DNA of 64,000 nucleotides from Chondrosia reniformis (taxonomy: Eukaryota; Porifera; Demospongiae; Chondrillida; Chondrillidae), in assembly GCA_947172415.1 (NCBI GenBank), contig OX359195.1, positions 4,749,501 to 4,813,500 on the forward strand, in the 5' to 3' direction. Below, piece by piece: positions 3,706 through 52,400 of this stretch (the stretch's first letter is position 1; each line of letters starts with the position of its first letter). The position numbers were made by a program, and so were the translations under genes. The notes under the pieces are model-generated. The model was not told the DNA's origin. It was given only the letters and a program-made list of their open reading frames with translations, and made no database searches.

Positions 3706-4878
3706 ACAGTTTACTGATGTACTAAATTATGTAATATAAGGTTCTTATATAGAAGATTAAATTTGTCTTCAAATTGAAATACTAAATATACAGTATACAC
3801 TTCAAATTCTAGTGAATATTTTTTGCTTATCATCATCTATAGCCTTTACACAGGCCAAGTGCAATTAACTCCCCAGTATTTATATGTTAGTATCTTCATT
3901 GTCACTTCCATTATTAGTACGATTATGCACCTCAATGTCATCATCTACTTCCTGTAGAAAAGCTCTACAGGACCAAGGATACCAGGGGCACTATGCTGCT
4001 TCTTTACTCATTGATGTAGGCCAATCTCATCCGCCCATGCACCCTTCATTCCATGCACAACGCAAAGCCTATACATCACAGATAATAGGTCTTAACTGTC
4101 TGTTATGAGCCTCCTTAACATGGTTACACAGATCTATTCAAGTTGTAATAACACAAACAACAGGCCCATATGGTTTAACATTATTCCATGTTCTCCATAA
4201 CATGATATACATAGAATACTTTATATAATATAACATAAAATATGATTGGATGGGTGGATGGGTGGATGAGGATGGATGGATGGATGGATGGATGGATGGA
4301 AGGATGGGGGTGGATGGATTGCCGGATAGCAGCTGTTTCCCTCAGCTCCACAAAAAGGTACTTTCCCTTGACATGATCTATCAGAAGTTTCCAGTCTAGT
4401 GATTAGTGAATCTATGATCTACAGGAGTCACTTTACATATACCTCAGCAGGCATATAGGAACCCTAGGGAGTGGTGGGAGATATATTGTTTAATTAGCAT
4501 TCCTTTGAATTTTTATCAATCAAATATATAAGAAACTATATTGTAACATTGGTACATACGTACATTTTTTATACAAATCAATGTACAATGCTTGCATATC
4601 TGTTTATTTTATTCTCTCTCATCGATAGCTATCAACTATATATATACTCTATCACTTATTAATTTTCTCTCATCTACTCATAATATTTATCTATAGTACT
4701 TCTCTATCATTGAACTGCCTTTCTCTATATATTCTCAAGAAAGTAAACCCACCAAGTGAGTTAGTATGGTGATCAGATTGGCCTGTCTCATTAGTGTGAA
4801 CTTGTCTCCCATGCATGTTGGGTTCTTTGACTATCACACAGGAAGCACTTGGATCAGCTGCATTCTACACAAAGTACA
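3706..4878. other. Non-coding stretch with a TGGA microsatellite
   Basis: No exon or ORF with recognisable content was found. The tract holds AT-rich DNA and an imperfect (TGGA)n array at about 4244-4319. A 74-aa ORF at 3884-4108 has no recognisable motif and is not called a gene. Confidence 0.6.
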
Positions 4879-4879
4879 G

Positions 4880-5180
4880 GAGGTTCGGACTTCTCTCTAA
4901 TGGAAGAAGAAAGTCTTGTTTTGAGTCAAGTATTCAACTGCAATGAAATTGGTCTTTACTGCATGGAAAGCTCTCCCAAGTAAAACATTGGCATCACATC
5001 AAGAAAGTCGTGGACCAGGCTATAAGGTCAGCAAGGAAAGGGTACCTATTTTGGCTTGTGTGAATGTTACTGGAGATCATAAACTTCCACTGATTACGAT
5101 TGGAAAGGCAGAAACCCCTATACATGGCTTTGAAGAATGTATATATCTTGTGGGGCTCTGCCTGTGAAGCACAGAAGTCA
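4880..5180 (+). pseudogene. Tigger/Jerky-type (pogo superfamily, DDE_1) transposase fragment
   Basis: Two reading frames together give QVFNCNEIGLY (the first-Asp block of Tigger/Jerky transposases, D.TGLY, here with Asn-Glu), then WKALPSKTLASHQ and KVSKERVPILACVNVTGDHK followed by LPLITIGKAETP. That is the standard order of the DDE_1 catalytic core. A frame change is needed between GLY and WKALPSK, and the ORF ends after about 75 codons, so this is a decayed fragment. No terminal inverted repeat was recognised around it. Confidence 0.75.
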
Positions 5181-5911
5181 TGCAAGAATGCCTGGATGAC
5201 ATCAATCCTATTCCAAGAGTTATTCTTGAAAAACTGACAACATCTGTAATCCAACATGTTTCCCCTTTCCCTTGGGGTGTCAGATTACAGATGTTCCACT
5301 GATGAGGTGAATTTTGTTCGCAGCAATTCTTATAAAATCTATAGTAGCAGTAAAATTAGCTCATTTTATAGCATCTTTAGGTGTATATACAAGGGCTCTT
5401 TCTCAATTAAGACCATTTCCTGTATCTATATGGCATTCAACATACTGCAATATCAAATACTTTAATGCCCCTATAGTGTTTCCTGATATCTATGGTCCAC
5501 AGTTCCAGATAATTCTAAAAGGTATTAAAAGGGAACCATACTCAGCTCTTTACCCTTTATGGCAACAATTCACAGAATAGGGAGCTGGCTGAGCAACTAA
5601 CTAGTTTAGTTAATGGGTTGTGCTGGGCAGCATGCTATGTGGGCTTCTTTGGTTTTTAAGACCAAGGAAATTTTGCCTACCAGATGGGACAAAATTTGAT
5701 CTGGACAAGGTGCACTTATAAGCTTGTCAGCTGTTCAGTTTCAAAAGGGTCGACGGCAATAAAGTGATGATAAGAATCAACCATTCAAAAGACAGACCGA
5801 TTTATGGAAGGACAGGAAAGAGATTATTCTATAAAGGAATGTTTCTGTTGTTGCTTTGAAAGACTATTTATCAGTAAGGGGAGGTAAACCTGGTCCATTG
5901 TATTTTTTTCA
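5181..5911. other. Unassigned region with an ORF of uncertain status
   Basis: An open stretch at 5314-5580 (88 codons) reads through without a recognised domain. It may be the 3' part of the neighbouring transposase remnant or an exon of an unknown gene. No splice signals strong enough to place it were found. Confidence 0.35.
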
Positions 5912-5912
5912 G

Positions 5913-6124
5913 ATGGGTCTCCAGTTAGTTATGGTGGTCCAGAAAATTCTGGATTACCAGGTTATTTGTTCAGTGGATACAGTTTTCACATTAGAGCTGT
6001 AACTACAGCTGCTAACGGTCAAGTCCCAGATCGTGCTATAAACGTATTGGGTATAGATGGAAGAGTCAAACCTATATACACAACCCTAGAGAAAATTCAT
6101 TTTTCAAAATCACTGGCAACATAA
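5913..6124 (+). CDS. Possible terminal exon of an unrecognised gene
   Basis: A good acceptor (tatttttttcag) is followed by an open frame of 70 codons that begins DGSPVSYGGPENSGLPGYLF and ends at TAA, with a gtaagt-like donor just behind the stop. The composition is protein-like (Gly/Pro/Ser-rich start, then alternating hydrophobic and polar residues). No family was recognised and no upstream exon could be joined to it, so it could also be a pseudogene fragment. Confidence 0.35.
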
Positions 6125-6156
6125 CAGTAAGTCAGCTGGCTAACAATACTTCAGCT

Positions 6157-6262
6157 TTTTCTTAACTGGGCAATTGCCACGGTAGTTATCGAATCTGTTA
6201 TCGGGCAGCTGCAGCTTACTAATTGGGAGCCATTTTATTTCTCTGACGTTCAAAATCCCAAT
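6157..6262 (+). repeat. Duplicated segment, copy of 8989-9094
   Basis: About 105 bp is nearly identical to the inside of the inverted-repeat element at 8.6-9.35 kb (starting CTTTTTTCTTAACTGGGCAA in both, allowing single mismatches). This copy carries a 6-nt tandem insertion (CTGCAG), so the frame (LNWAIATVVIESVIGQ...) is kept. See the findings. Confidence 0.8.
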
Positions 6263-6638
6263 GCATCATTGCAGATTATACAGGCAGGATAGGAAGTAAG
6301 GCAGATTTAATTAACGGGGGAAAAAACCAGCAGTTGGCTATAATAACAGCTTATTAGTAAGAGGCATAAGGACTATAGGTAGTGATATCCCCGGGCCTGG
6401 ACAGCTAGGGTGGGAATGCTGGCCGTAACCTATAATTAGTTCTCTGAGAATTGGGATAGCTTATTGTATAGTTGGGGTAAGTTATATTCATGCTTTTGGT
6501 TTTATGACTTACTGGTTATAAGGAGGAGGAAGAAAAGGAGTTAGCAGAATTTCCGAGCAAGGTAGAGGTCTATCACAGTTAAGTCGGCCATTTTTAAAGG
6601 AGGAGGGTTCTCCTGTAGTATATATAAATAATGCGTGC

Positions 6639-7478
6639 ATGTGTGTGTCAGCCATGAAAGTACGCATCAGCATCCATCGAGTTATGGGCTGTTTTATAAG
6701 CTGCATTCGTTTCACCGTTCGACAATGTCTTAGCATGTTACGATTCCTCTTTTGTCTACGCCGAAAGATATTAATAATCGGAGGTCCTGGAGTTGGTAAA
6801 AGTCAGGTAGGAAACATTTTGGTAGGAAAGGAAGTATTTGCAACGTCAGTTGGACGAATACCAGGTACGAGAGTGTTTCAATCCACTTCTATTAGTGGGG
6901 TCAATCAGAGTAACTGTCTACAGACTGAGATAGTTGTAGTTGACTCTCCAGCTTTAAAGGGCGACCCTCTAGTATGCCAGCATGTTTACTTGCAAGATAA
7001 TATCGCAGACGTTATTTATCTTGTGATCAATGGCGATGCTAGGTTTACCCAGGATCAGCAATTGGCTTTGGAAGCAATTGCTAAATTATACAAAGCTGAG
7101 ATGTTCTGGGATCGTATAACTGTGGTAGTGTCACATGCAGCTAGCCTTGGAAGCACTGTGAACGAGCAAAAAAGAACCTTTGAAGACACAATGAAAGACA
7201 GAGATTGCCCACTGACTTTGAAGTGGCTCGATCGTAAAGTTAGAAATCGCATACTTTTCGTGGAGTCTAAAAGTACTTCGGCGGTCTATATTCAAGAGAG
7301 ACGTGAAGAGTTGCTTAACATGATCGAAGATAGGAGATCAATCATGTCTTTTAAAGAAAGAATGATTATGAGAGCTAAACATACTATGAATTCTCTTCTC
7401 TTTCTACTTGGAATAAATTGTTTAAATAGCCAAGAAGATACCAAAGACTTCGAGTCAGAGTACACTAGGCTTATGTAA
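6639..7478 (+). CDS. AIG1/GIMAP-like GTPase, gene 1 (single exon)
   Basis: Predicted GTP-binding protein of the AIG1 (GIMAP/IAN) family, 279 aa. P-loop GGPGVGKS at residues 48-55; a Thr of the G2 region follows in PGTRVFQS; G3 is VDSPA (101-105) in place of the usual DTPG; the AIG1 box follows (FTQDQQLALEAI, about 137-147); the G4 position reads SHAASL (165-170) instead of the usual TR/K-x-D type. The later segment NEQKRTFEDTMKDRDCP resembles the same region in the two neighbouring AIG1 genes. The first 40 residues are hydrophobic and basic and may be a membrane anchor, or the true start may be Met6 or Met16. The substituted G3 and G4 motifs suggest altered nucleotide specificity or activity. 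No Hint exon was found downstream of this gene. Confidence 0.85.
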   Translation: MCVSAMKVRISIHRVMGCFISCIRFTVRQCLSMLRFLFCLRRKILIIGGPGVGKSQVGNILVGKEVFATSVGRIPGTRVFQSTSISGVNQSNCLQTEIVVVDSPALKGDPLVCQHVYLQDNIADVIYLVINGDARFTQDQQLALEAIAKLYKAEMFWDRITVVVSHAASLGSTVNEQKRTFEDTMKDRDCPLTLKWLDRKVRNRILFVESKSTSAVYIQERREELLNMIEDRRSIMSFKERMIMRAKHTMNSLLFLLGINCLNSQEDTKDFESEYTRLM

Positions 7479-7769: not shown

Positions 7770-8534
7770 TCACAAAAAAGTCCAGTCGTTCTCCCTTAGC
7801 GTTTCCTGACTGAAGCGACCACCGGTTTTAGTCTTGATAATCTGAATTCTTCGTTGTAGTTTCTTTACACAGGCCTCTCTGTATTCTTCATCAGTATTAC
7901 TCAATTCGAAGAAAGTGTATCTGTACAGTGGCTCCTCGTCACCATTACATTCGTTAATGGGCTCCTGATATTTTATCTTATCAACCATCAAATTCTTGAA
8001 ATTTGTAGGACAACTGTGATCTTTTATTGCATCATCAATATTTCGTTTTTGCTCCTCTTCAGTATCACCTAATTCTCCTGCTCTTGTAAAAGCAATAATT
8101 ATGTATTGCCATATGCAATCTGGAAGCTGATTTAAGAGTTCTTCTTTATCTGCAGTGAAGCGGTTACATGAAGGTATTACAAGGATAATAGCATCGAATC
8201 CCTCTTTAGCTAGAGCCATATCCGTTTTCAGAAAAGGTAAGTACTTGCTTAGGAACGGATTGGTGAACTGAAAGATGGTTTCAAAAAAGGGACCTATACC
8301 AATTACTTCGTCATTAGGCCGCTTTAGTCCTAGAGGTTGGGTGTCAACTACTGCCATGTCATTACCAATGGCACACCGAGGAGCGACGGTTCCAGTAATG
8401 TGTCCCGTGGTGACATTGAAGAAATTTTCTTTTGTTAAAAAATTTCCAAGTCTACTTTTGCCAGCTCCTGGCCACCCGACCAATAGCACAACGCAGTTAG
8501 GATCGGGTGTTTGCGTATGAAAGAAATTTCCCAT
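7770..8534 (-). CDS. AIG1/GIMAP-like GTPase, gene 2 (single exon)
   Basis: AIG1-type GTPase of 254 aa, convergent to gene 1. P-loop GWPGAGKS at residues 20-27; G3 VDTQ (63-66; the Pro-Gly of DTPG is replaced by Gln-Pro); AIG1 box RFTADKEELLNQL (about 125-137); G4-like FTRAGEL (149-155); then EEEQKRNIDDAIKDHSCP, the segment shared with gene 1. An insertion of about 30 residues (84-113) lies between G3 and the AIG1 box. Soluble and probably cytosolic. The inverted-repeat element at 8619-9348 lies about 85 bp upstream of the start and may have displaced or become part of its promoter. Confidence 0.87.
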   Translation of the reverse strand: MGNFFHTQTPDPNCVVLLVGWPGAGKSRLGNFLTKENFFNVTTGHITGTVAPRCAIGNDMAVVDTQPLGLKRPNDEVIGIGPFFETIFQFTNPFLSKYLPFLKTDMALAKEGFDAIILVIPSCNRFTADKEELLNQLPDCIWQYIIIAFTRAGELGDTEEEQKRNIDDAIKDHSCPTNFKNLMVDKIKYQEPINECNGDEEPLYRYTFFELSNTDEEYREACVKKLQRRIQIIKTKTGGRFSQETLRENDWTFL

Positions 8535-8618
8535 TTTTATTCCTTTTCTGCTGTAGTTTCCTCGAACTTATATATTAAAAACTACTGTATAGCTATAGGT
8601 AAATCCATTCGACGTTAA

Positions 8619-9352: not shown

Positions 9353-10050
9353 CCGCTCGGTAATACAAATAATAATAATATAGCCGGTTGGTCCGGCAAA
9401 TAGTCACGCCCTACAGACGTTTTACAATTTGTGTATGATGTTTGTAATTACTACAGGACTTCCTGGTAGACCAGCTGTGAGCTGAAAGGACATTCCTGAT
9501 TAAATTAAAGATTAATGATGATGATAAAGTGGCATACTGCCATTCACATCTCTTTTGTGTTCAGGTGCACCATCCCTACTTCAGCTATCCATGGTGGGCC
9601 CAACATGCACAGAAGTGATGTAACTTAAATTGCAATATTCCACTTCTGTATGATTAGCTGTAACTCTCACGATGTTAGCTACCAGAATACGTATATACGA
9701 TCATAGATGTAGTGGTTAGTCTACGATACCATATACGTGATAAAATGGCGTTCCCAAGATAAATGTGGCCTCAGCCGGAAGTGGCGCGTCTTCTGCGCCA
9801 GGGGCAGTTATTCCTATGTTAACCCTCTTATCAGCTGATATGGAAGGCTTTGATCCGATACGTCCATGAATGCGGATATAGTGGCAAATTAATAATAATA
9901 ATAATAATAATAATATAGCGGAACAACACAAACTAAGATACGGTACATTTATAGCAAGATTGGGCACTCAGGAATGTTAATTGTTTCTATATATACCAGA
10001 TACAAATTGCAGTCATTCACTGCAGATCCAAAACCTGTAACAGTTCCTGC
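9353..10050. other. Non-coding stretch with a MITE-like fragment and TAA microsatellites
   Basis: Between about 9536 and 9660 the DNA resembles an arm of the 24.4 kb inverted repeat (CAGAAGTG...ACTTCTGTATGATTAGC). Short (AAT)n runs lie at about 9365-9380 and 9890-9916. A small GC-rich hairpin, GGCGCGTCTTCTGCGCC, lies at about 9783. No gene is supported. Confidence 0.55.
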
Positions 10051-10058
10051 AATTAAGT

Positions 10059-12086
10059 ATGGCTGATAACAATCGAGGCGCTGAGACAATCAAGATCTTG
10101 CTAATGGGGGCAACTGGTGCAGGAAAAAGCGCTTTTGGAAATTTTATATTGAATAAATTTAAAAAAGAAGAACAGCCCTTTAAAGTTAAAGTGGGCTTAG
10201 TACATGGTACAACTGAAGCCAAAGCAGATAGGGTAATATTCAAGGATAAAGAAATAGTAGTAGTCGACACTCCGGGTTTGCAAGATGCCGCGGAAGGTCA
10301 AAGAGACGAAGATACATTTAAGGATATAATCAAGGGTATAGTTCTAACAGGAGATGGTGTTTCTGCGGTGGTGTTTGTTCAAAATATGAGTCAACGCTTC
10401 ACCGAAAGTGATGAAAAGATTCTGGCATATCTAGCAAAAGGCAGTGACTTCTGGCCTTACGTTATTTTGGTTTTTTCACGGGCTGACGAAATTTCTGGTG
10501 AGATTTCCATACAACGCGAATATCTGCGGTCTGAATACGAGCATAAGGACTGCCCTCGAAAATTTAGGAATGTGATTGACAATGTAGGCGGCATAGGGGT
10601 GGGCCGCTACATTACGGTTGATTCCAAAAATTCAAGTTACCGAGAAGAAATTATGAGTCACCTGTTACAAGAAATCGCAAAAATAAAGGAACGAAATGAA
10701 GCTCTTTACACCAATGAAATGTTTAAAAAAATCGTCAAGAACCATCAGACTCTAACAAGTGCAGTGGCAGAAAAAAAGAATTTGAAATTGATTAAAGAAG
10801 AAACCGAAAAGGTAACATCGATATGTATATGTCTCACTTCTGTATGTTTGGGCGCATCATGCGTATGATTATTCAATATAAGCCACTTCTAAAATGGCGT
10901 CTCCATCTTAAGTCTATACACTGTCGTGCTATTTTCCCACCTATTTAAAAATATGGTAAAAGTAACTGTTTTTGACAGAACACGTATTATTGCCTTACAG
11001 AGCAGTCCTAGGGTTTTAAAGCTTAAAGACGTTTAGCTTATACATGGAGGAGACTTTGGTGGACATTCCTCAATATTACACTTGACTACAGTGCCTGCCG
11101 ACCGAATATCGGTCGATCGGCCGAAAATCGATATTTTCAGCCACCCTCTTCAATCGTCTCTAGCGCAAAGATGCAGTGATATAGAAATCCCTGATTGCGT
11201 GCACTATGTATACTCTCAGAAAGGCCTGTATAATGATGTTTATTTGAAGTTAATAGCTTTCGTAGTTTTTGAGATATGAGTGGCCGAAAATCGATCCGGC
11301 CGATTATTGATTGGTTACTCTATATATCCACAGGGATGGCACTTTTAACCAAACAATTACTCGTGTTAAGGCCAACCATTCAGAAGTGGTATATTAAGTA
11401 TACATACTAAAATTACCTACCCATATATACACATGCATCAATCACTTCTATGTTTAGGTGCAATTATGATGCACATCAATATCTGTCTTGTATAGGGAAT
11501 ATCAGGAGCAAGTTGTTTTCCTGGTGACTGTAGCATTATTACACCTAATGGAGAAGTTCAATTGAAAGATTTAAAGATTGGTGACAAAGTTCTTACAATG
11601 GTGAAAGGGGAAATGAAATTTCAAAAGTTGATCACTTTTTTGCACTATGTACCCAAGGAAACGGCATCTTACTTGGGTATACACACCGATGGTGCAGAAC
11701 CTCCAATTTACCTAAGCAGCGAACATTTGATCTTTGTAGTGTCTGGTCAATGTACCCAGGTTACCCCAATTTATGCCAAAAAGGTGAAACCTGGAGACCA
11801 TATCTTGAGAGTAAAGCAAGACAGTGCAAAAGCAGGCCTAGGTGCTATGGCAGTCACCCAAATTACTGAGGAAAGCAACATGGCTGGAATTTATGCTCCT
11901 CTTACTACTTCAGGAACAATTGTAGTCAATGGTGTAGTTGCTTCCTGCTATAGCAACATCTGTAGTCATAGCATAGCCCACGTTTCTTTGGCTCCTCTGC
12001 ACTGCCAGATATTAGGTGGAAGTAAGCTATATGAGGGAATACATCCTTATGCAAGCTTCTTGATGAAACTCAAAGGAACTGTATAA
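10059..12086 (+). CDS. AIG1/GIMAP-like GTPase fused to a Hedgehog-type Hint (Hog) domain
   Basis: Two exons, 10059-10811 and 11496-12086. The donor (AAG|GTAACA) and acceptor (cttgtatag|GGA) are both phase 0, giving 447 aa. Exon 1 is a canonical AIG1 GTPase: P-loop GATGAGKS (17-24), G3 DTPG (70-73), AIG1 box RFTESDEKIL, G4-like FSRADEI (139-145), then a Lys/Glu-rich linker. Exon 2 is a Hint domain: SCFPGD at about 257-262 (splicing Cys 258), a KIGDKVL strand, SSEHLIFV (Ser325-His328, matching the Hh TxxH with Thr to Ser), then YAPLT.SGTIVVNGVVASCY and a Hog-like end with a possible sterol-recognition-like tail (YEGIHPYASFLMKL). Known Hint domains cleave themselves at the Cys and attach a nucleophile such as cholesterol; that function is inferred here. 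There is no signal peptide, so the domain would act in the cytosol. Without splicing, exon 1 would end at 10868. The fusion is predicted, not proven. Confidence 0.78.
10840..11495. other. Intron of the AIG1-Hint gene with MITE-like pieces
   Basis: Holds two CACTTCTRTRTTTRGG-type fragments (about 10840 and 11440) related to the 24.4 kb inverted repeat. A tract at 11098-11310 repeats the word GGCCGAAAATCGAT. A 65-codon ORF here has no domain and is not taken as an exon. Confidence 0.5.
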
Positions 12087-12109: not shown

Positions 12110-12523
12110 TGATTAAAAGTTTAAGTCTGAGACTCCAAATATCTGTGAACTTTGTCACGTACACTATGGTATTCAGTAAAAATGTTAAAATGCATTATAT
12201 ATGTATTGTAATAAGTATAATTTTACATGACATTTGATGTATCAATTATAAATTAAACTGCTCCCTGCATGAATAACAATACAACTGCATGACTTAAAGG
12301 TACAGATTTAGCATGATTATAAGGTATTAATCATGTGATACTTCTTGGATCACTTACATAGCAAAATTTAGAAATACTTATAAAGGAGTAGGTATCCATA
12401 TTCTTTCAAAATACAATTCTTTCAAAGAATATAAAAGTTTGCATGATGCGGTTATCCGGATCCAATGACATCTAATATTCTACAGCCATTCATATTATAG
12501 CAGCAAAACACACCTTATATCTC
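12110..12523. other. Non-coding stretch
   Basis: AT-rich DNA behind the Hint exon with no ORF, repeat unit or signal I can name. It presumably includes the 3' UTR of the AIG1-Hint gene. Confidence 0.5.
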
Positions 12524-49489: not shown

Positions 49490-52400
49490 TATATGTGGCA
49501 GTCGAGGATAAAAACCGAAAGTTATACACACTTAGTCGAAAATGCGATTTTGGAATTAGAGTGTAGAATAGGTCTTAACTTACCTTCACTGAAAGTTTGG
49601 GACCCACCCGCGCTTCCGTGGAGAAGAAATTTAGATTCAAAGACCACCAACTGGAGAGATACTACTACTTTGAAACGATAATGAATAATTAATGAGTTAT
49701 AAAATGGCCGCCCATAACGATCGAATATTTATGCAGACAGTTTTATGATATAAAGAGTACAACAAAGTAGGCAATATACTCAGGATTTAAAGGTTAGTTG
49801 TTTTAACAAAGTAAAACGTAAGAAATTGGGAAGCTATCTTCTAGTCCGTGGGCAACCTGCCTTTGTGTTATGGCCATCTTTCCAACGTTTTTTGTTTCTG
49901 TGCCCAGACCCATCACAGCCACGTGTACTGCATCTTTTGGGCTTCTTTGCATTTGGAGGGTTGGATCCTTCTTGGTTTGTGTAAGAGTTTGGCCTTGAAT
50001 TTTGACTAGGTAGTGATGTTACTTGCAGAGGTTGAAGTGGAGTACGCTGAGGGAAAGCAGATTCTATGAAACTTGGCCACCTTTTAGGTGTTACATATTT
50101 TCTGTACATCTGTGTCAAGTGCACCATCTTCTCTGTAGGTAATGGACAGACACGTTGAGAATAGGAGATTGCTGGAATGGCTATTACAGATGAGTCAATA
50201 ACATGTAAAGGAGAATCCGTCGCATTTCCTTGGAAGCAACTTTGTCTGACTTTCATAACAACTTTGTCATTCGTAGAGCGTGTAACTAGAAAATCATGGA
50301 ATTTCCGTACTCCAGCCAGTTCAGAATATTTTTTTATTAGGGTACTCCTCCATTCAAGAATTTCAGATCCGTCCTCAATGTGAGAAGTACTAAATTTCTG
50401 GCATATCAACCTTAGTTCTTCTGCTGTGAAAACATCTTCTCGATTGTACTGGTTGGCTACTAAGGAAAAGAGGCGGTCTGGGGCAAATTTAGTATGCCCA
50501 GCAACTAAAAAGCAAAAGCGGATGTGGTCCACTTTACGATTGCCAACTACTTCCATTCCCCAAGCAAACAGGAAACGATTTTTGTTGGTGTTCCCAGCGT
50601 TGTCAAGAAAGATGCATATGCGTTTAATCCATGGAAACTCAGATGTTATTTTATCCATGTATTGTGAGAGAAAAGATATTGTGTGGTCAATATTTTTTGG
50701 ACCAACTGTTTCGTTACATATTGTTATTGCTTTGCTATCATTTCTGTGGTCAACTAGGCCAAAGATATCGTGGGAAACTTTCTGCAAGTAATATGTTGAG
50801 CCTGGCTGCTCTGTTCTTCCCCAATGAGGAATCAGTTTACTTTGCTGGTAGTCAGCTGACAATACTAATGTGAATGAATGCTGGGCAACAGTCAGTTCTA
50901 CATTTTCTGAAGATCTCCCTGCCTTAGTCAACTCCACGATTTAATTCCAATTTTCAGTGCATGTACGGATTGTCTGATTGTAATAATCCCTAGCTGCACT
51001 AGCATCCTCTTTGTGGCTACGGAGTCTTTCTTCAGATACTTCTATATTTGCCTCAACTTCCCTAATTTTTTGTTCTTCTGCTGATCCAACTTGCATGAGA
51101 CGCTTTAGAATCGCAGCCTGCCTAGATTTTTCCTCCTTGATAAGCTTACATGTATCGCAGTAATCGGATTTATGGGGATGAAGTGCTATCTAGCACTAGC
51201 ATCCTCTTTGTGGCTACGCAGTCTTTCTTCAGATACTTCTATATTTGCCTCAACTTCCCTTATTTTTTGTTCTTCTGCTGATCCAGCTTGCATGAGACGC
51301 TTTAGAATCGCAGCCTGCCTAGATTTTTCCTCCTTGATAAGCTTACATGTATCGCAGTAATCGGATTTATGGGGATGAAGTGCTATCTTTGGCCGAAATG
51401 TTTTCAACCACTTTCGTGCTCCAAATGCAGAGCATGTCATTTTACCTGCCTCCTCCTGTGTCTGATTGAAAACCCATACAACAGATGCCTGAGCCTTAAC
51501 TTGAAAATCCCTTTCATTTAATTTGGGTGGGTCAATTCTTGTAAATTTAGGGATGAAGAAGAATTGTGGGCTATAACTTCCTGCCTGGCAACCATTAGGA
51601 TGGCTGTTTGCATCCACAAACTGCAGAAGGCTTCTTGCACTTGCGGTTTTGAATGATTTGACATTCTTCCAGCTAATCCATGCCTTTCATGAGGATATTT
51701 CACTTCAACAGTGTCATCATCAAGTAAAGTGTCCCACCAGTCAGATATTCCTCCACAGATGTCATTTACCATAGGATAAAGCATAAAGGATTGCAGTTTC
51801 TTTTCTATTACCTCTCTCTTTGCTAGTGTAATTGCAGGTTCCTGGCATTGGTTTACTTTTATTTCCCTTTGTCTAGGCAGCCTCTCCGTGTGAACACCCA
51901 GGTTACTAACAATGCAGGCTAAGCAGTACAGGTAATTACCATGAACATCAAAGATGTTTTCCCTTAACCATTGATTCTGTTCTGTTGTAGAAATGAAAAG
52001 ATGACAGTGAAGAGTCAATGTTAGTGGCACAAGACAGTTTTACATAATTTTATTTATTTATTTATAATTGTTAATTAGAGGTTGGGATTAGGTGTGCATG
52101 TGCACAGTTATATCTATACGTACAGATTTGTTCAAATCGTAGACAAGTAATTTAAGTGCAACTACATGCATGTAAACACTTGCCTGTAAGATTTTTGTAT
52201 GCCATATCTTCCCTTTTTGGATTTGGATAGCTATTGATGCGAGATGCATAAGTGCTAGCATTATGTCTCTCTTCACTTGAAAATACATCGGCCAATCTCT
52301 TGAGAATCTCAGCACAGCCACGTTTGCAGTTGCTAGATTCTGTTTCCTCACTGGTAAGTGATGAATCTGCGCTAATAAGGCTATCCTCAAGGTCTGGCTT

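Follow-up and report, generated by a model that had tools for sequence, protein, structure and literature searches.

Does a Hedgehog-type Hint (Hog) domain in the genome of the sponge Chondrosia reniformis belong to the same gene as the AIG1/GIMAP-type GTPase frame that lies immediately upstream of it and, if so, what could a self-cleaving domain do for such a GTPase? We addressed this in a stretch of 64,000 nucleotides (C7:4749501-4813500), here called the window, and searched it together with the remainder of the genome (117,379,552 bases in 15 contigs). A first-pass annotation had proposed a cytosolic GTPase that could release or lipidate its own N-terminal part, a possibility that the domains, the residues and the gene structure all support. 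The account we favour, and which we regard as moderately probable, is that a two-exon gene encodes a cytosolic precursor of 447 residues that would cleave itself before Cys258 and leave the GTPase carrying a sterol.

The identity of the upstream frame, which runs from an ATG at 10059 to a stop at 10866-10868, is clear. With 10059-10868 as query, Pfam finds an AIG1 domain (PF04548, E 1.5e-33, 116.3 bits against a cut-off of 27), and eight of the nine PDB matches are to GIMAP1/2/4/5/7, the ninth and weakest being EngA. The motifs GATGAGKS (the P-loop, codons from 10107), DTPG (10266) and FSRAD (10473), which we take to be the G motifs of AIG1 GTPases, are intact, and with a domain above the Pfam cut-off the frame encodes a member of the AIG1/GIMAP family. 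We place the coding part of exon 1 at 10059..10811 on the plus strand (residues 1-251). Judged by eye, its N terminus, MADNNRGAE, contains no hydrophobic signal or signal peptide, and there is no CARD in exon 1 according to Pfam. Two further AIG1 frames, at 6522-7475 (+) and 7773-8567 (-), adjoin the gene (Pfam E 6.4e-15 and 4.7e-11), and the frames form a small AIG1 cluster.

The downstream exon (11496..12086, plus strand; residues 252-447 and the stop codon) is no less distinct. It matches the Pfam Hint family PF01079 with E 1.1e-41 and 143.2 bits against a cut-off of 29.7, over profile positions 11-209 of 213, and all four of its PDB matches are Hedgehog or Sonic hedgehog structures (6td6, 7e2i, 6tyy, 1at0). 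The segments SCFPGD, SSEHLIFV and NGVVASCY, on which the first-pass annotation had based its Hog assignment, are all present and in the order it gave. By alignment, the residue set of a Hog domain is present: Cys258 (11514..11516, plus strand), the predicted nucleophile and counterpart of Drosophila C258; Ser325 and His328 of SSEH (11715..11726, plus strand), which align with Drosophila T326 and H329, with Ser for the Thr of the TxxH motif; and Cys402 (11946..11948, plus strand), at the place of Drosophila C400. An intein would be followed by a C-terminal splice junction and a downstream extein, and here the protein ends 43 residues past the Hint core; the Pfam Intein_splicing model reaches only E 0.19. 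In NCBIfam the Hint exon had no match, and the AIG1 exon matched general models alone, all below cut-off; a single-sequence AlphaFold prediction of the Hint exon (pLDDT 29.7) yielded no usable model. Among prokaryote genome contigs, 185 stretches fit the search pattern and none encodes a relative. The sole match in the viral collection, contig L011, is unrelated: by eye, it contains at 4275-6234 a helicase-like gene apparently split by an intein-type Hint segment.

The combination of the two domains was thought in the first-pass annotation to be undescribed, which the literature contradicts, with reports from Glomeromycotina, Acropora, Biomphalaria and lancelets. GmGIN1 of Glomus mosseae is described as having an AIG1-like GTPase and, after it, a Hog domain termed bona fide, but no signal peptide (PMC2362128), and the MEROPS C46 proteins of Glomeromycotina are reported as AIG1 plus Hint in a "huge expansion" (PMC8778642); the sponge protein has the same order of domains, whereas only one copy was found in its genome. 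AIG1 with a C-terminal Hint is likewise the arrangement in the three animals. In Acropora millepora, four sequences are reported with an AIG1-like domain and a C-terminal pfam01079 Hint, for which the authors infer protein splicing (PMC3723955), although by analogy with Hedgehog chemistry a C-terminal Hog domain would be expected to cleave rather than to splice. Biomphalaria glabrata is reported to have an AIG gene with a C-terminal hint/hedgehog domain (PMC7053062). The lancelet proteins are described as CARD+AIG1+HINT (PMC12373286) and so add an N-terminal CARD that the sponge exon 1 lacks. The same report states that, among animals, only amphioxus has its CARD and HINT architectures (PMC12373286), which for a C-terminal HINT alone would be at odds with the findings in coral and snail. 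For sponges, no AIG1-Hint protein appeared among the papers listed in our search of the literature, which covered running text; AIG1 itself is reported as missing from Amphimedon, as present in the glass sponge Aphrocallistes, and as encoding proteins in Halichondria panicea. Besides its records in fungi, coral, snail and lancelet, the architecture now probably occurs in a sponge, the present gene perhaps being the first noted from that group, and its occurrence in those other groups counts in favour of reading the two sponge exons as one gene. In the part of this literature that we searched, we found no test of how the Hog domain affects the GTPase.

What sets the sponge domain apart from the Hedgehogs compared here, and what we consider the most interesting trait of the gene, is a natural His at the site of the sterol general base. 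In Hedgehog this site is occupied by an Asp, D303 in Drosophila, which corresponds to D46 in Hint numbering (PMC9163320) and to D243 in human Shh (PMC7906309). The Asp is reported to deprotonate cholesterol, and the D303A or D46A substitution to block sterol transfer and not thioester formation (PMC9163320, PMC13060885). The sponge protein has His301 here (11643..11645, plus strand), in a column whose surroundings are free of gaps in the alignments to 6td6, 7e2i, 1at0 and the D303H crystal, 6tyy. This last structure, a laboratory variant of Drosophila Hedgehog that shares its His with the natural sponge domain, outscores the wild type 1AT0 as a match (3.8e-15 against 8.2e-14). Engineered D303H is reported to keep its structure and activity, with gains of over 200-fold on coprostanol and over 300-fold on epicoprostanol (PMC9163320). 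Our comparison covered Hedgehog sequences, and in the parts of the D303H/D46H hedgehog literature that we searched, where the variant is an engineered one, we met with no natural protein that has His here. The first-pass annotation mentions neither this His nor the compact tail described next.

The region after the Hint core is less clear-cut. It spans 43 residues (11955..12083, plus strand), resembles a sterol recognition region with the elements SHSIAHVSLAPLH and GIHPYASFLMKLK, and is almost loop-free. Its first element lies inside the significant Hedgehog alignment; in the second, GIHPYA resembles GIHWYA of Hedgehog, in a stretch of -0.6 bits that by itself lacks significance, and the Pfam Hint match still extends over the tail, to profile position 209 of 213. 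For human Shh, H374, P379, R381, L382, L386, L390 and the HWY motif with Y435 are reported as the key residues (PMC7906309). Residues like H374, P379 and Y435 are retained in the sponge tail, while W372, F380, R381 and W434 are changed (partly judged by eye), with R381 replaced by His and HWY by HPY, and an ungapped extension, read by eye, suggests that two of the three membrane leucines are absent. Sterol recognition regions in Hedgehog are given as 50-100 residues long, against which the shorter sponge tail speaks against sterol transfer, although two helices are reported to be needed in human Shh and a 32-residue loop to be dispensable (PMC7242414). Sterol transfer by the sponge domain is thus plausible but not assured.

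Read in terms of Hedgehog chemistry, the precursor would consist of the AIG1 GTPase (residues 1-257) and the Hog domain (258-447), presumably in the cytosol. With help from Ser325 and His328, Cys258 would turn its bond to Ser257 into a thioester; the short tail could dock on a sterol-bearing membrane; His301 would activate the sterol hydroxyl, which would then cleave the thioester and free the GTPase, whose last residue would carry a sterol ester. The N-terminal partner of a Hog domain is described as a bystander in the reaction (PMC13060885). Such an ester might hold the GTPase at the membrane, a role like that of the C-terminal membrane segments of GIMAP1/3/5 or the CaaX boxes of paralogues. 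The features shared with Drosophila and vertebrate Hog domains are the Cys, the T/SxxH motif, the second Cys and the elements resembling a sterol recognition region, and the departures from Hedgehog are a GTPase partner that by eye lacks a signal peptide, Ser for Gly at the -1 position, His for D303/D243 and a shorter tail. Both the presumed cytosolic location, as opposed to the secreted Hedgehog, and the Ser at -1 count against this scheme. A more specific version of the proposal, in which a cytosolic immune-type GTPase sterylates its own C terminus by a natural "general base swap" and His301 lets unusual sponge sterols in, is one that we hold only tentatively and would not expect to prevail. 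If true, a GTPase family with CaaX prenylation and hydrophobic segments would have a further route of lipid anchoring, and there would be a sterylated protein other than Hedgehog. With His301 in place and an engineered D303H variant in existence, the chemical prediction is a clear one.

The most serious alternative is that the gene is fused and its Hint domain does no more than cleave: water, a small thiol or some other nucleophile would resolve the thioester, and the GTPase would be released free of sterol. Several of the observations above suit this reading, namely the Ser at -1 and a reduced tail without several of the residues required in Shh, and it gains from the report that D303A, N, R and E raise the efficiency of Hedgehog cleavage by DTT (PMC9163320). 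His is not in that list, however; at the general-base site it supports the use of cholesterol by engineered Hedgehog according to the same source, and the sponge tail has both elements in order, with the H374-, P379- and Y435-like residues present. We therefore consider cleavage without sterol transfer unlikely, though it deserves real weight.

Both of these readings require that the exons be joined. The first-pass annotation had the AIG1 exon end at AAG/GTAACA in phase 0 and a phase-0 acceptor open the Hint exon after 684 bp, and we arrive at the same junction (10811/10812), phase and intron length, with an intron at 10812..11495 (plus strand) that ends in TGTATAG/GG. In a simple home-made consensus score, the donor at 10812 is the best GT in 10700-10900, although by eye it deviates from the consensus at +5/+6, which counts against the fusion. 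Of the AGs listed in 11380-11560, only the acceptor at 11496 preserves the Hint frame from a phase-0 donor. The Hint frame, 11496-12083, begins directly after an in-frame TAG, which also supplies the AG of the acceptor, and has no ATG ahead of the catalytic Cys; open only from 11496, it thus needs an upstream exon. In the AIG1 frame, the codon score is 0.575 in the final 19 codons of exon 1 and drops to -0.277 in the 19 that follow, and the Hint exon scores 0.106 in frame overall and -0.046 in its last third, the latter counting against the fusion; these scores derive from a training set of 40 frames, each of 260+ aa, in AIG1 loci and their neighbours (L013-L048) and may favour the AIG1 exon. 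None of AATAAA, ATTAAA, AGTAAA and TATAAA occurs inside the intron, and an ATTAAA at 12112..12117 (plus strand), a candidate poly(A) signal, starts 26 bp past the stop codon of the Hint exon. Finally, searches of the whole 117 Mb genome found one Hint domain and 44 AIG1 matches, and by simple arithmetic a Hint placed at random has a chance of about 1.9e-4 of lying on the same strand as any of these 44 and no more than 1 kb downstream of it. Taking domains, phase and the drop in coding score at the donor together, the sequence supports the single-gene model of the first-pass annotation, and the AIG1 and Hint exons are probably one gene with predicted splicing.

The intron contains a dispersed repeat of about 310 bp (11014..11325, plus strand) with at least 51 matches in the genome including itself, the other 50 all confined to intron positions 203-519. 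We considered whether the intron as a whole arose from a repeat and found the case weak, with 16 of 1000 shuffles reaching the score between its 5' and 3' parts; its first 59 bases resemble 11422-11471 (1 of 300 shuffles) and 9620-9656 (4 of 300). We also rejected the idea of a conserved intron in two AIG1 copies on contig C1. These have donor-like GTAAGC and GTAAGT at the same place, bases that also encode V-S, with no clear downstream exon in either copy, where 9 and 54 acceptors were candidates. When the end pattern was searched for, 7 matches came up, compared with 5 for a control.

Instead of being spliced, transcripts might retain the intron and end at 10868, giving, alone or beside the fusion, a lone AIG1 GTPase whose hydrophobic, Cys-rich tail could be S-acylated. 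The continuation of the unspliced frame (10812..10868, plus strand), VTSICICLTSVCLGASCV and a stop, is unusual: the window has 1139 stop-ended frames of 30+ aa, and no other has an 18-residue tail with at least four Cys and at least this hydropathy, albeit a trait noticed post hoc. The two nearest copies on C1 moreover stop just past the same point, with EKVSDL and EKVSV (the second frameshifted). The former belongs to the closest paralogue (C1:2688629-2687829, 38% identical), whose frame may end naturally near the end point of exon 1, so that an AIG1 protein ending there is possible. Against this, the paralogue frames end unlike VTSICICLTSVCLGASCV, the codon score turns negative exactly at the donor, all four poly(A) hexamers are absent from the intron, and the Hint exon would be left without a start codon ahead of its Cys. 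We thus consider a lone GTPase improbable. That the Hint exon instead has a promoter of its own and forms a separate gene, or encodes a non-catalytic leftover domain, for which the absence of positive coding bias in its last third could be cited, is very improbable in view of an open frame without ATG before the Cys, core catalytic positions occupied by Cys, Ser and His or by a residue with proven function in Hedgehog, and the same fusion reported in four other groups.

Why a GTPase of this family should acquire a C-terminal sterol can be approached through its relatives. GIMAP1, GIMAP3 and GIMAP5 are reported to carry C-terminal membrane segments (PMC8201404). When the 44 AIG1 matches were extended from stop to stop, 43 distinct frames resulted, whose ends are single-exon stops that may differ from the real C termini and whose low-scoring members may include other GTPases. 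Five of the 43 end in a CaaX box (CIII, CSVF, CTLL, CTLI and CLVM; loci L045, L017, L018, L019 and L034), where internal four-residue windows of the same frames give an expectation of 0.21 and 1 of 200000 simulations reached five; for a strict pattern 0.08 were expected and 0 of 200000 simulations reached the observed number, the patterns having been fixed after the first such end had been noticed. Among the 1139 stop-ended frames of the window, eight fit the wide pattern and one the strict. The CaaX-ending frames are predicted to be prenylated GIMAP-like GTPases, which makes C-terminal lipid anchoring plausible in this family, and by analogy with these relatives a C-terminal sterol may be another solution to the same need for membrane anchoring. 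On C1, AIG1 frames form a further cluster (L013, C1:2684001-2694000, and L014), which includes a frameshifted copy at 2686263-2685416 on the minus strand and some frames with a hydrophobic, Cys-containing N-terminal segment.

The locus also bears on the origin of Hedgehog. A Hedgehog protein combines an N-terminal Hedge domain with secretion, and PF01085 is absent from the Pfam matches of exon 1. The only Hedge match in the genome lies elsewhere (L012, C2:118794-119084) and is followed by a VWA frame, which makes this gene, judged from its domains, Hedgling-like, an arrangement known from sponges, choanoflagellates and cnidarians (PMC4054682). In Amphimedon, Hedge and Hint are reported as separate genes (PMC2346548). 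With the only Hog domain found in this genome adjoining an AIG1 exon and the Hedge domain next to VWA, C. reniformis fits the published view that Hedgehog was built from parts still separate in sponges (PMC4054682, PMC2346548). Elsewhere in the window, at 49837-50940 on the minus strand, a 368-aa frame encodes DUF7869 together with a C2HC zinc finger below cut-off.
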